Position numbers and translations under genes: made by a program
In this document: piece after piece, positions 5,451-19,469 of the stretch
Position numbering within the stretch: the stretch's first letter is position 1
Layout: each line of letters opens with the position of its first letter
Source of the DNA: a virus
IMG/VR virus record: IMGVR_UViG_3300042924_001321
Span: 1-25,049 of that record
Reading direction: 5' to 3' (one strand)
DNA: 25,049 nucleotides
Notes under the pieces: generated by a model
What the model was told of the DNA's origin: nothing
What the model saw: the letters and a program-made list of their open reading frames with translations, nothing else
Database searches by the model: none

Positions 5451-5630
5451 TTAGTTAATAGTTATTTTAATCGTGTTAAACTTTGTTTCTGAATTCATAG
5501 CTTCACTTATTTCAATTTTAATATCTGAGTTTAAATCTATGTTTTTGCGCTGGCAAAACATCTGTATTTGTCTAATCAACTTAAGCGATTTCTTTTCCTT
5601 TCTGTTTGATAAAAAATAGGTGCTTTTCAT
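5451..5630 (-). CDS. Hypothetical protein, 59 residues
   Basis: The ATG at 5630 overlaps the methyltransferase stop as ATGA, and the frame ends with TAA at 5453, 7 nt before the next gene. The product starts MKSTYFLSNRKEKKSLK, has a basic amphipathic helix (SLKLIRQIQMFCQRKN) and a strand-rich C terminus (DIKIEIS..., TIKITIN). No domain recognised and no membrane segment. Overlap and spacing support that it is a real gene in the replication operon. Function unknown. Confidence 0.6.
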   Translation of the reverse strand: MKSTYFLSNRKEKKSLKLIRQIQMFCQRKNIDLNSDIKIEISEAMNSETKFNTIKITIN

Positions 5631-6544
5631 ATTGTTAGCTGCTTATCTAATTCATTATATTGTTGAATCGCCTTAAATATTTGATAAACTACTTGAGGGA
5701 CGATTGCGTTTCCTCCAGCTTTGATTGATTCTTGTCTCCATTTAGAAAAGGTAATTCCGTCCAATCTTTCTGAAAGCCCATCATTTCCATTACAAATTGG
5801 GGAGACAGTTGGGAAGTTTTTCCAGGAGTTCCATTTGTTATCCCGTGCATATGATTTACTAGAGAAGTTCCGTATTGAAGTTTTTGCGTTGGTCTTGTTA
5901 TTCCTCCATTCTTGTCTGATGCTGTTGGAGTTGGTAGTAGTCCCCTTAATGCCATTTGGTCTAGTGGCATTGTAAATGGTTTGTGACCCTTCTCGACTAA
6001 TCTCTTCATTCTCTCGTCGTATTTGTCGAAGCTCTTTTGCTCCCTGGCTTGCGCTAGAGGAGTAGGCAACAAACCAAATTCTGTCCCTTCTGTGTGGAGC
6101 GTTAACGGCACAAGCTGGAAGTAAAAACGGTGTAACTTCGTAGCCTTCATTTTCCAGGTCAGCCTGCACTTCGTCGAATACCAACCCTCCATTCCAATTA
6201 GTAAGCCCGCGAACGTTTTCGCCCACAACCCAGGTCGGTTGAATCTCTCGAATTGTTCTAAGCATCTCAGGCCAGAGGTGTCTCGAATCCTCTTTTCCAA
6301 GTCTCTTTCCTGCGGATGAGTATGGTTGACATGGGAATCCACCTGTAAGAATGTCAATTGTTCCTCTGTGAATAGTGAAATCTGTCTTGGTGATATCATT
6401 GTAAGTTATTGCTTTAGGCCAGTAATATTTTAAAACTTTTTGTCCAAATTCATTCCATTCGCAATGGAATACGTTTTCCCATCCCATCCATTCTGAGGCT
6501 AAATCGAAACCTCCAATTCCGCTAAATAGTGAGCCGTGTCTCAT
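5627..6544 (-). CDS. DNA cytosine-5 methyltransferase
   Basis: 305 residues from the ATG at 6544, which lies 1 nt after the helicase stop; an in-frame ATG at 6580 would overlap the helicase and is less likely. It transfers methyl from SAM to C5 of cytosine in a target site, likely to protect phage DNA or mark it. Motif I LFSGIGGFDL (6-15), motif IV GGFPCQPYSSAG with catalytic Cys72, motif VI ENV (109-111), motif VIII APHRRDRIW (149-157) and motif X GGNAIVPQV (about 277-285) are all present. Residues about 162-245 (target recognition region) are rich in N, S, T and R and look weakly constrained. A second gene (5689-6399) is read in another frame through most of this gene. No restriction enzyme partner is nearby. 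Confidence 0.93.
   Translation of the reverse strand: MRHGSLFSGIGGFDLASEWMGWENVFHCEWNEFGQKVLKYYWPKAITYNDITKTDFTIHRGTIDILTGGFPCQPYSSAGKRLGKEDSRHLWPEMLRTIREIQPTWVVGENVRGLTNWNGGLVFDEVQADLENEGYEVTPFLLPACAVNAPHRRDRIWFVAYSSSASQGAKELRQIRRENEEISREGSQTIYNATRPNGIKGTTTNSNSIRQEWRNNKTNAKTSIRNFSSKSYARDNKWNSWKNFPTVSPICNGNDGLSERLDGITFSKWRQESIKAGGNAIVPQVVYQIFKAIQQYNELDKQLTI
5689..6399 (-). CDS. Nested out-of-frame gene, methyltransferase-associated protein
   Basis: A 236-codon ATG-to-stop frame lies entirely inside the methyltransferase gene, shifted +1. It does not look like a shadow. It has composition of a folded protein (W, Y, P, G well spread) and motifs I recall from phage methyltransferase loci: CRLTWKMKATKLHRFYFQL, LLPTP twice (the second as LLPTPTASDKNG), and near the end LSPQFVMEMMGFQKDWTELPF (shortened: SPQFVMEMMGF, DWTELPF). 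The last block recalls the end of many phage methylases ('LNP.FVE.LMGFP..WT'). It overlaps catalytic Cys72 of the host frame and stops before motif X is complete. It could be a specificity subunit or accessory protein, or a second half of an ancestral fused enzyme. Expression is unproven. Confidence 0.6.
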   Translation of the reverse strand: MISPRQISLFTEEQLTFLQVDSHVNHTHPQERDLEKRIRDTSGLRCLEQFERFNRPGLWAKTFAGLLIGMEGWYSTKCRLTWKMKATKLHRFYFQLVPLTLHTEGTEFGLLPTPLAQAREQKSFDKYDERMKRLVEKGHKPFTMPLDQMALRGLLPTPTASDKNGGITRPTQKLQYGTSLVNHMHGITNGTPGKTSQLSPQFVMEMMGFQKDWTELPFLNGDKNQSKLEETQSSLK

Positions 6545-16481: not shown

Positions 16482-19469
16482 TTACGCAATCATTAAAACC
16501 CCTGATAAATTATAAACGTCACCGCTAGACAATCCAGCGGCAGATGTTGGCAAACCTACTATTCTTAATTTACTTGCTCCATTTGTTGCAGTTCCAATCA
16601 GCACGTTGCCGCCAGTAGTTATAGCAAAATAATTACTTGGCCAGCCTCCAAATGAATTTGGTGAATTATTTGCTCGATATCCTATTCCAAAAGAATCTGC
16701 AACTCCCCAACCAGCACTTACCTGACCAAAAACCCAACTGTGATTTGATACAGTACTAAAAAATAAAACAGTAGGTCTGTCCCCTCCTGTTGTACCTGTT
16801 GAGAATTCAGATACAACACCAAAAGTATGGTCACCATTTACATTTCTAACCTTTAATGCTGGAAAATAACCTCCAGTAGATTTAGTATTATTTATATTTA
16901 CCAAACCTTCAATGCTAGTAGCATCGCCACTAACAGATAATCTAGATGTAGGATTAATCTGATTTATTCCTACATTACCATAAAAAATTTGTCTATCTCT
17001 TAAAAAGTCTACAACGGTTGTTCTTGCTGATGACAGATTCCCATCACTAGCTTGAAATCTAAATCCGCTTGAATTTGCTGCGCCTGATACAGAAGTTTGA
17101 ATAGCATTTGCTTCAGCGTTAGTAACTGAGTATTGAGCAATATAAGCATCTGCAAAAGTTCCATCCACACCTGTTGAGGTTGCTCGAACGGTATTGCTAA
17201 AGGTAGCCGCGCCTGTGGTAGCAATTGATACGCCAACATTACTAAAATCTCCTGAGCCTGTTATATTATTAATTTTAAAAGAATCTGAATCTGAGTTATC
17301 AACACCCATTAACCATTCCCTAACTCCTGACAATAAGTATGAAATAGCAACGTCTCCGCTTCCAGCTTGTTCTAGCCTAATTCCAGTTGCATTGCCTACG
17401 CTAGTATTGTTTTGATTATACCGTCCAGTTCCGTTAACATCAAATTTATAGCCAAAATCTGTCGTTGTCCCTACAAGTACATTTCCAGCTGAACTAACAA
17501 CAAATCTTGTGAGTTGTTGTGCAATGTCGTAAATATAAAACGAACCTGAAAAAGCACCTGTTGAAGAGCCTGCTACTGAAAGTTCATAGCCTTTACTACT
17601 TGTATTGACTATTGCTAAAACAGTTTGAGAGGTATTACTACTTGATAATCTTAACCCAGGATTTGTTGAATTTTGTATAGCAGTTCCAAATATTTCAACT
17701 AATGCAGTTGTATTTGTTGCAGTACCAATACCAACATTTGTCCCATTGTCAAATATGCTACTATTGCCAATAGAACTTGTTCCTGTAAACTTAGACAAAT
17801 AGTTTGTTGTACCAGTTCCCGTAACTGTTCCGCCTCCATCTATTACCTCAATAATATTACCTAAAGAATCAACGGCCAAATTACGAGTTGCAGTTCCTGT
17901 AAACGTACCTCCTCCGTAAGCGTTAAGCCTTAGCCTTCCTGAACCATTTATTTCTAATCTTGTACTAGAATCAAGCGCTGTCCAATTATTAGCTATTTTA
18001 AAACTATCTCCATCAGAGTTATCTATACCAGCAGTCCAACCAATAACTCCGTCAATATCCCAAGAAAGAATTGGGTCCCCTCCTCCAGCTCCTCCTGTTC
18101 TTAAGGATAAAAATGTATTTGCAGTTGTAATTGAACTATTAGTATTATAAATATAGATACCAGGAACATCGCTTAAATTAGGGTTTGTATAAGTTGAACC
18201 TGAGCCTTCAATATGAAATTTAGCTAATGGAATAATCGTACCAAGTCCTACGTTTGTACCATTATCAAATAATAAGCTATTTCCAATCGTGCTGGCTCCT
18301 GTAAACTTTGGCAAATAATTAGTCGTCCCTGTTCCCGTTACTGGGTTAGTAAGCGCGTTTTGTTTGCCGTTAAAAGTAGACCAATCGGTACTTGATAACA
18401 AGCCATTTTGCGAGCCGCTGGCCGTTGCAATTGCTAAGGTAATAGTTCCGCTTGTTGTTATGGGAGTTGAGCCAATAGTGACCCCGCTAGTTGCCGAGGA
18501 TAAGCCGACCGAGGTAACCGTTCCAAGGTTGGAGGTTTTATTGTTAAAAGTCGTCCAATCCGCCGAGCTTAAGGCACCTCTAATGGTAGAGGTAGCCGTT
18601 GGTAAATTAAAAGTATGGGTATCGCTTGCGCTGGCAATGTTAAAGTCAGTTCCGCTAGTTCCAACCGCAAAGAATTGAACTTGACTAGTCAATCCATTTA
18701 AAGCAGTTAAACCAGTTGTAAACGTGGTAATAACTTGGCATAAATGATTGTCCTCTGTATGTAAAGTAATTGTACGACCTGAATGAGTAACGTAAAATCT
18801 AACCGCCAATCTATCTGTTAAAGCTAGGACTGTCTCGGGAACTGCTAAGGTTGAGAAATAAGGGTTTAAGTTAGTTCCAAACGCAATCAATTCAGGAGCC
18901 GAGCTGCTTGTAGCAAGTAAAGTAAAGGTTGTGCCATCGTACTTGTAAAGCTCAACATAAAAGGAGGGTGAACCTCCACTTGAAGACGCCGAGAAATACG
19001 TTTCAAAGTTCCAATTACCTCCAGGAATAAGTAGTTTATTCGGGTCTAAAGCGTCTGTAATAAATGAAGCAATATATCCGTCAGCATTAATGCTTATGTC
19101 AGTTCCAGTGCCAAAAACTGGCGTTCTATTCAACTCTTTATAAGCAACGCCCCCGATTGTGCCTTGCGAAACAGAACCATTCAAATAGTAGCTAACCGAT
19201 GAGCCTCCTCCAGTAGTTGCTGGAAAGTCTGCCAAAGAGCCATCGCCTCTAATGTATTGACCAACCGTACCAGCACCACCTAAAACTTGGCTTTCTGTAA
19301 TTGACAAACCAGTTGCGGCCGTGGCAATGGTTACGGGCAAATGATTCTGACCGCTTCCACTTGGGTCAACTGGATTTTGTCCCTCGGAAACAACAAAGCC
19401 AGGAGAGGCTGGAGTCGAGCCAGCTCTAACTACTTGCGCTCTGTATTTGCTAATATTTACGTCTTCCAT
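16482..19469 (-). CDS. Tail fibre-like protein, 995 residues
   Basis: A long Ser/Thr/Gly/Asn-rich protein typical of receptor-binding tail fibres. Residues about 1-95 probably attach it to the tail. About 95-260 form a beta-sandwich-like unit (GGNWNFETYFSAS..., RLAVRFYVTHSGRTITLHTE). From about 290 there are fibre repeats such as SADWTTFNNK / STDWSTFNGKQ, GTVTSVGLSS, and two copies of GTGTTNYL(P/S)KFTG..IGNS..FDNGTNVG(L/I)GT. Later units repeat SRLSVSGDA- and GNVLIGTATN-like strands. It ends SGDVYNLSGVLMIA. No C-terminal S74 self-cleaving chaperone is seen, so a separate chaperone or a short trimer tip may be used. It follows the 1012-residue tail protein with no gap. Confidence 0.8.
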   Translation of the reverse strand: MEDVNISKYRAQVVRAGSTPASPGFVVSEGQNPVDPSGSGQNHLPVTIATAATGLSITESQVLGGAGTVGQYIRGDGSLADFPATTGGGSSVSYYLNGSVSQGTIGGVAYKELNRTPVFGTGTDISINADGYIASFITDALDPNKLLIPGGNWNFETYFSASSSGGSPSFYVELYKYDGTTFTLLATSSSAPELIAFGTNLNPYFSTLAVPETVLALTDRLAVRFYVTHSGRTITLHTEDNHLCQVITTFTTGLTALNGLTSQVQFFAVGTSGTDFNIASASDTHTFNLPTATSTIRGALSSADWTTFNNKTSNLGTVTSVGLSSATSGVTIGSTPITTSGTITLAIATASGSQNGLLSSTDWSTFNGKQNALTNPVTGTGTTNYLPKFTGASTIGNSLLFDNGTNVGLGTIIPLAKFHIEGSGSTYTNPNLSDVPGIYIYNTNSSITTANTFLSLRTGGAGGGDPILSWDIDGVIGWTAGIDNSDGDSFKIANNWTALDSSTRLEINGSGRLRLNAYGGGTFTGTATRNLAVDSLGNIIEVIDGGGTVTGTGTTNYLSKFTGTSSIGNSSIFDNGTNVGIGTATNTTALVEIFGTAIQNSTNPGLRLSSSNTSQTVLAIVNTSSKGYELSVAGSSTGAFSGSFYIYDIAQQLTRFVVSSAGNVLVGTTTDFGYKFDVNGTGRYNQNNTSVGNATGIRLEQAGSGDVAISYLLSGVREWLMGVDNSDSDSFKINNITGSGDFSNVGVSIATTGAATFSNTVRATSTGVDGTFADAYIAQYSVTNAEANAIQTSVSGAANSSGFRFQASDGNLSSARTTVVDFLRDRQIFYGNVGINQINPTSRLSVSGDATSIEGLVNINNTKSTGGYFPALKVRNVNGDHTFGVVSEFSTGTTGGDRPTVLFFSTVSNHSWVFGQVSAGWGVADSFGIGYRANNSPNSFGGWPSNYFAITTGGNVLIGTATNGASKLRIVGLPTSAAGLSSGDVYNLSGVLMIA
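17725..17826 (-). repeat. Fibre repeat, copy 2
   Basis: This stretch encodes the second copy of the GTGTTNYL.KFTG unit and matches 18235-18342 closely through most of its length, with many silent changes, so it is an intragenic protein-level repeat. Confidence 0.65.
18235..18342 (-). repeat. Fibre repeat, copy 1
   Basis: First copy of the same unit, encoding VTGTGTTNYLPKFTGASTIG and the following FDNGTNVGLGT. Such copies can recombine to change fibre length. Confidence 0.65.

Follow-up and report, generated by a model that had tools for sequence, protein, structure and literature searches.

Division of a C5-cytosine DNA methyltransferase (C5-MTase) over two polypeptides is already known. In M.EcoHK31I, motifs I–VIII and X are carried by the large polypeptide, and motif IX alone is located on the small polypeptide (PMC3404938). 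M.AquI is also a split C5-MTase, whose small chain contains motifs IX and X as well as the distal variable region (PMC3404938). Moreover, multispecific C5-MTases of Bacillus phages (M.SPRI, M.H2I type) carry several tandem target-recognising domains (PMC8936443).

The locus analysed here is located in a viral record of 25,049 bases (the window, i.e. the whole stretch of DNA that was analysed) and consists of a C5-MTase ORF, alpha, with 305 aa counted from its ATG, and a second ORF, beta, which is open for 236 codons from ATG to stop and lies wholly within alpha in the frame +1 relative to it; this nested ORF is present just as the initial annotation had described it. Compared with M.EcoHK31I (YGGCCR), by description only, the division of motifs is alike, with I–VIII and X on the large chain and IX on the small chain, and the small ORF of the window also lies within the large ORF in another frame. 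Reportedly, the small ORF of M.EcoHK31I is nested in an alternate frame of the large ORF, and its product is said to be shorter than beta of the window type. However, the target-recognition (TRD) region of M.EcoHK31I was predicted in the large subunit, whereas here it is assigned to beta on the basis of selection and of the fused relatives; beta is modular; and M.EcoHK31I is part of a restriction–modification system, whereas the loci here are mostly those of phages and prophages. Since the TRD would reside in beta and not in the large chain, the window locus is best read as a variant of the M.EcoHK31I type rather than a plain member, and the two-chain layout of M.EcoHK31I indicates, from one characterised case, that such a split can work. 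M.AquI differs in that motif X is on its small chain, whereas in the window it is in alpha. The multispecific Bacillus phage enzymes are similar in having tandem modules, but these are in frame on one chain, whereas the tandem exchangeable modules found here, which are ∼40 aa long and precede motif IX, belong to a second chain with a reading frame of its own. What is new at this locus is that the small chain, beta, carries tandem exchangeable modules.

The features of the locus are collected in Table 1. The alpha ORF is open over 5627..6544/6580(-) and runs 62 nt beyond the end of beta. Neighbouring genes in the window encode a DnaB-like helicase/primase, a DnaD-like helicase loader, a RusA-like resolvase, terminase and portal. 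A 995-aa ORF without a PHROGs match occupies 16482–19469(-), and the same stretch has a probable tail/virion structural gene.

Table 1. Coordinates of features of the alpha/beta locus (window positions)
Feature	Position	Strand	Evidence
Alpha, predicted large chain of a C5-cytosine DNA methyltransferase, 305 aa	5627..6544	-	PF00145, phrog_363 and M.HhaI matches; AF2 model
Beta, nested +1-frame ORF, 236 aa, predicted TRD region and motif IX subunit	5689..6399	-	phrog_1008; frame conservation; dN/dS
Alpha motif IV Pro-Cys-Gln, catalytic Cys72	6326..6334	-	Sequence
Alpha residues 162–243, low-complexity N/S/T/R linker	5816..6061	-	Near-neutral alpha frame; mostly disordered in model
Beta module 1, LPTPLAQAREQKS..., 44 aa	5938..6069	-	Sequence; module census
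Beta module 2, LPTPTASDKNGG..., 43 aa	5809..5937	-	Sequence; module census
Beta motif-IX-like segment LSPQFVMEMMGFQKDW	5761..5808	-	Beta profile against M.HhaI; same segment in Aggie gp53
Alpha motif X, GNAIVPQ	5693..5713	-	Sequence; alignment
A-rich leader of beta start, CTAAAGCAATAACTTACA followed by ATG	6400..6417	-	In-frame stop just upstream of beta ATG

Alpha matched PF00145 in Pfam (1.6e-47), phrog_363 in PHROGs (2e-73) and, over its residues 3–163, M.HhaI (9e-20). Motifs I, IV (PCQ), VI (ENV), VIII and X, all of which the initial annotation had read in this frame, are present, and their invariant residues are kept in 25 relatives. Motif IX was found neither in the sequence nor by alignment in the alpha frame ahead of motif X, a point on which the annotation was silent and which is the key to the identity of beta. 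In the AF2 model of alpha, pLDDT exceeds 90 across most of the catalytic half and is below 50 for residues 190–252, and a Foldseek search with this model returned M.HaeIII and M.HhaI at 1e-14. Modelled alone, alpha thus resembles the catalytic domain of a C5-MTase, and its TRD region is disordered. In two other loci, L083 (KT997847.1) and L089, the N-terminus of alpha is in the frame of beta and not in that of the remaining alpha, which may reflect a frameshift, a sequencing error or a different split.

Beta matched phrog_1008, named ‘DNA methyltransferase’, at about 2e-17 to 3.0e-17. No family was matched in Pfam or NCBIfam, phmmer of beta against the PDB returned nothing, and hhalign of beta with one canonical MTase was not significant. 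A profile built from 77 betas matched only M.HhaI chains in the PDB, weakly (E 0.25), at residues 268–302 (KLHPRECARVMGYPD), which correspond to motif IX. When beta was modelled alone by AF2, confidence was low (pLDDT 62), and the fold search gave no informative match. The peptides that had been taken as protein signatures of this frame (CRLTWK, two LLPTP units, TASDKNGG, FVMEMMGF and DWTELPF) are all found in beta.

The identity of beta became clearer in comparisons with relatives in which the same sequence is arranged differently. In gp53 of Mycobacteriophage Aggie (MH697576.1 35734–37386), motifs I–VIII, LPTP modules, FPEWMMGWPAGW and motif X (GNGVCPQQ) follow one another in a single frame; its modules and the next segment (IX) were aligned by the beta profile (hhalign E 7.6e-10), and the whole protein matched phrog_1008 at 3.9e-71. 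In Mycobacteriophage Peaches (NC_013694.1 46163–47258), gp77 carries motifs I–VIII, and the next gene, gp76, which is in the +1 frame, contains the modules, SEWMMGWEEGW and motif X; this side-by-side split, with IX and X together on gp76, is closer to M.AquI than the window locus is. The fully nested form of the window occurs in coliphage K1ind3, mycobacteriophage Bubbles123, Klebsiella phage BUCT711 and Paenibacillus phage Rani, and by profile the separate Peaches ORF, the fused Aggie protein and the betas of K1ind3 and Rani are also members of phrog_1008. Judged from sequence, the Peaches and Aggie loci appear to be alternative arrangements of the nested pair. From these fused, side-by-side and nested relatives, together with the M.HhaI motif IX match, beta is identified at the sequence level as the part of a C5-MTase that comprises the TRD region and motif IX, with I–VIII and X kept by alpha, and hence alpha and beta would jointly hold the full set of C5-MTase parts. 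Beside its single-frame fusion, the Aggie locus retains a second +1-frame ORF with LPTP units (L317:2329-2847).

With beta as the query, 80 loci were obtained from viral contigs, and alpha was found with beta in the same relative frame in all 80. Further loci came from bacterial genomes and viral contigs searched with a beta profile, from an alpha-only search of viral contigs and from four annotated phages, for a total of 306 sequences (the window plus 305 loci, 80 of them obtained with the alpha-only query and 80 out of bacterial genomes). Beta is in the +1 frame of alpha in 306 of 306, a count that speaks for the relative frame and, since every locus of the main set was gathered by similarity to the window alpha or beta, not for the frequency of the nested form among all phage C5-MTases. 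The set holds duplicate contigs, and 228 distinct alpha genes are left after a filter for both ORFs being intact. A canonical single-chain C5-MTase without a beta match is that of Streptococcus phage phiARI0639b.

If the beta frame were open by chance, stops would be expected in it. With the alpha protein fixed and synonymous codons shuffled in 62 unique loci, 6.8 beta-frame stops per locus were expected and 0 were observed, and only 0.04% of the shuffles were free of stops. The third frame, which served as control in the same shuffle, was not depleted of stops (19.6 observed, 20.8 expected). A single internal stop in the core of beta was seen in a few loci (e.g. L001 at codon 68, L173/L259 at codon 44, L151 at codon 30), where alpha is intact or nearly so; decay, error, or pairing of alpha with another beta may be responsible.

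Selection was then compared between the two frames, in which position 3 of alpha is position 2 of beta. Counted in alpha positions for close pairs, the ratio of differences at position 3 to those at position 1 falls from 5.55 in the 5′ non-overlapping region to 2.9 in the catalytic overlap, and reaches 0.44 in the TRD, where evolution follows the periodicity of beta. An OLGenie-like, overlap-aware count was made on 39 disjoint and hence independent pairs. In this count, NN/NS of beta was 0.41 [0.31–0.51] in the catalytic overlap (N part), 0.45 [0.36–0.54] in the TRD and 0.39 [0.30–0.49] in the C part, and the 5′ region without beta, used as control, gave 1.05 [0.74–1.64]. The corresponding NN/SN values of alpha were 0.07 (5′ region), 0.10 (catalytic overlap) and 0.52 (C part). 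In the TRD, NN/SN was 0.72 [0.64–0.84], i.e. not strictly neutral, and 1.01 in an earlier set of 16 close, non-independent pairs. On these counts beta is under purifying selection all through the overlap, and constraint switches in the TRD, where the alpha linker is near-neutral and beta is constrained; the near-neutral linker fits its disorder in the AlphaFold model. The initial annotation had proposed true dual coding, with the low-complexity target-recognition stretch of the host frame under weaker constraint than the nested frame. Both parts agree with the alignments of homologues and the two-frame tests, in which beta was open in nearly all homologues and constrained, as dual coding predicts.

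The most common position of the beta ATG among Bacteroidota phages is 145 nt 3′ of the alpha ATG, and in many of these loci a beta-frame stop lies right before it. Shine–Dalgarno sites are seldom used in Bacteroidota, and no obvious one was seen at the beta start in the Bacteroidota loci. Among 82 unique loci fetched with Paenibacillus- and coliphage-type beta, a Shine–Dalgarno sequence of ≥5 nt precedes the first beta ATG in 46%, compared with 8% at other ATGs of the same genes (OR 9.6, p 6e-17). Beta of the window phage is probably translated from its own internal ATG.

Between its N-terminal half and motif IX, beta has 1–5 tandem units beginning with LPTP, with a median length of 40 aa (5–95% range, 29–51). 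Among 1012 pairs of near-identical modules (≥85%), 687 are located at different indices or in betas differing in module count, and 221 occur in proteins that are <55% identical over the N-terminal 100 aa. Judged from this distribution, modules are exchangeable between betas, and each module might read one DNA sequence.

We therefore favour, with a probability of about 0.86, a two-subunit phage C5-MTase whose subunits overlap out of frame and act jointly as one enzyme, with beta supplying the TRD and motif IX. Alpha, with motifs I–VIII and X, would bind the cofactor and attack the cytosine. Beta, started at its own internal ATG within the alpha gene, would dock as the small domain, contribute motif IX and read the target through its modules, of which beta of the window has two of ∼40 aa. 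Alpha and beta would assemble into one enzyme with a specificity set by its modules, and this enzyme probably shields phage DNA from host restriction. The initial annotation had suggested a specificity or accessory subunit, or the remains of a split enzyme stacked in alternate frames: the former idea and the stacking agree with the fused form in Aggie and the side-by-side form in Peaches, but ‘remains’ does not fit, because selection maintains both parts.

Other explanations of the nested frame have to be weighed against this two-subunit enzyme. The frame could be incidental, i.e. open and similar between relatives merely through alpha conservation and codon usage, with no product made. Since alpha is highly conserved over the N-terminal half of beta (NN/SN 0.10), part of the similarity of beta in this half is indeed dictated by alpha. 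However, the codon-shuffle null predicts stops that are missing, beta is selected even where alpha is near-neutral, Shine–Dalgarno sequences are enriched at the first beta ATG, and beta-type sequence shares the frame of alpha in Aggie and forms a gene of its own in Peaches; an incidental frame is already contradicted by these data and is hardly credible. Alternatively, beta might be an unrelated overprinted protein with another role, e.g. one that inhibits or regulates either restriction or alpha, and the lack of a Pfam or NCBIfam family, as well as a fold that could not be modelled alone, would agree with this. But the same sequence lies between motifs VIII and X in the single-frame Aggie MTase and together with motif X in Peaches gp76, so that an unrelated protein appears very unlikely.

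Phages do have products made by frameshifting, and beta might be made solely as a trans-frame fusion, by a +1 shift from alpha to beta giving a chain of I–VIII, TRD and IX, i.e. canonical domain order through motif IX. Against such a fusion, motif X is in alpha beyond the end of beta, the start of beta is conserved and separate from that of alpha, with a ribosome-binding site in those groups in which one is expected, and beta is constrained 5′ of any useful shift point (NN/NS in the N part); we regard production by fusion only as unlikely. Out-of-frame HNH elements occur within actinophage methylases (ShiLan type, PMC11855218). A mobile element of this type was rejected for beta because no nuclease family was matched in Pfam, PHROGs or NCBIfam, the conserved catalytic half is part of the overlap with beta, and beta occurs in all relatives, with no disjunct distribution.

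The nested form was found in phages of Paenibacillus, Lacticaseibacillus, Mycobacterium, Escherichia and Klebsiella. Nested loci are thus not restricted to Bacteroidota phages, for which the initial annotation had mentioned them, and reach other host phyla; the two-polypeptide M.EcoHK31I is a described precedent (PMC3404938). The arrangement is widespread among phages, and gene annotation overlooks it nearly every time. In the literature on nested genes in phage methylases, no functional description was found. Rani gp51 (‘g50 Internal gene’) and Escherichia phage K1ind3 ORF29 (‘Mte8-like’) are the same nested +1 beta at the same place; their records annotate the internal ORF and offer no mechanism. 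The name of phrog_1008 does not tell that its members would be the TRD/motif IX half and not a whole methyltransferase. In the RefSeq/PLSDB records examined (E. coli prophages, plasmids), alpha is listed and beta is absent. Searches of plasmids and E. coli returned many nested alpha/beta loci, among which M.EcoHK31I was not identifiable. In L448, L449 and L324 (E. coli Ec1117, E. coli E21 and an Enterobacter hormaechei plasmid), alpha alone is annotated, and an unannotated nested beta of 243–334 aa ends in LNPAHSRWLMG or similar. In a Klebsiella aerogenes locus (L323), the frames are broken.

Functional gene pairs that are long, fully nested and kept across phage lineages from more than one host phylum are rare; at this locus the hidden gene would complete a textbook enzyme. 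With this assignment phrog_1008 gains a testable role, out-of-frame modular target recognition becomes testable as well, and many orphan phage cytosine methylases are predicted to be inactive if cloned as annotated, i.e. as alpha alone. The locus also provides a clean natural case in which two frames share out selection among segments of one sequence.

Motif IV is intact in the window alpha, and in some relatives it is split by a hexamer containing a stop codon, i.e. six extra bases between the codons of Pro and catalytic Cys. The pattern is GGN TTC CCN, then stop YYN, then TGC CAR CC, where the stop is TAA, TAG or TGA and YYN is CCN, CTN or TCN (loci L428–L447 and L450–L486, e.g. L428:6817-6839(+), L451:1462-1484(-) and L452:4760-4782(+)). 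A scan for any hexamer at this place, pooled with two earlier scans that required a stop, gave at least 43 unique methylase-like matches; among the matches listed, 40 of 43, all 40 in unique phage loci, have stop plus YYN, and the other 3 look like an unrelated sequence, without MTase features downstream. A sense hexamer at the same place was found in 0 of 220 unselected intact alphas. The pattern was absent from 369 genomes of one bacterial class (0/369), and blastn, a sequence search and not a pattern search, found no isolate with the hexamer.

Simple code reassignment is disfavoured, since the stop at this place can be any of three, and no suppressor tRNA was found on the fetched contig stretches of hexamer loci. 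RNA structure at the hexamer was not marked (mean z −0.9, controls −0.5). YYN comprises codons reachable by the NGG anticodon of tRNA-Pro through G-C or G·U pairs at the first two positions, so that a hop over the stop would restore native PCQ: peptidyl-tRNA(Pro) would leave CCN, pass the A-site stop, re-pair at YYN and resume at the catalytic Cys, giving GGFP-CQP. The hexamer is thereby a candidate for a natural stop hop by tRNA-Pro, of which no in-frame example was known to a 2016 review (PMC5009743). Readthrough of the stop is an alternative, as is a +1 shift at CCN-stop into beta. In the +1 (beta) frame, the second Y of YYN is not obviously needed. That one family combines an out-of-frame, shuffling cassette of TRD modules with a natural in-frame stop hop in a sub-group, to which the window does not belong, is a tentative proposal, to which we give somewhat less than even odds. 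In most hexamer loci alpha stays open past the hexamer through motif X, and in the TAACTA sub-group alpha 3′ of the stop is under strong purifying selection (NN/SN 0.10–0.20, 14 unique loci).
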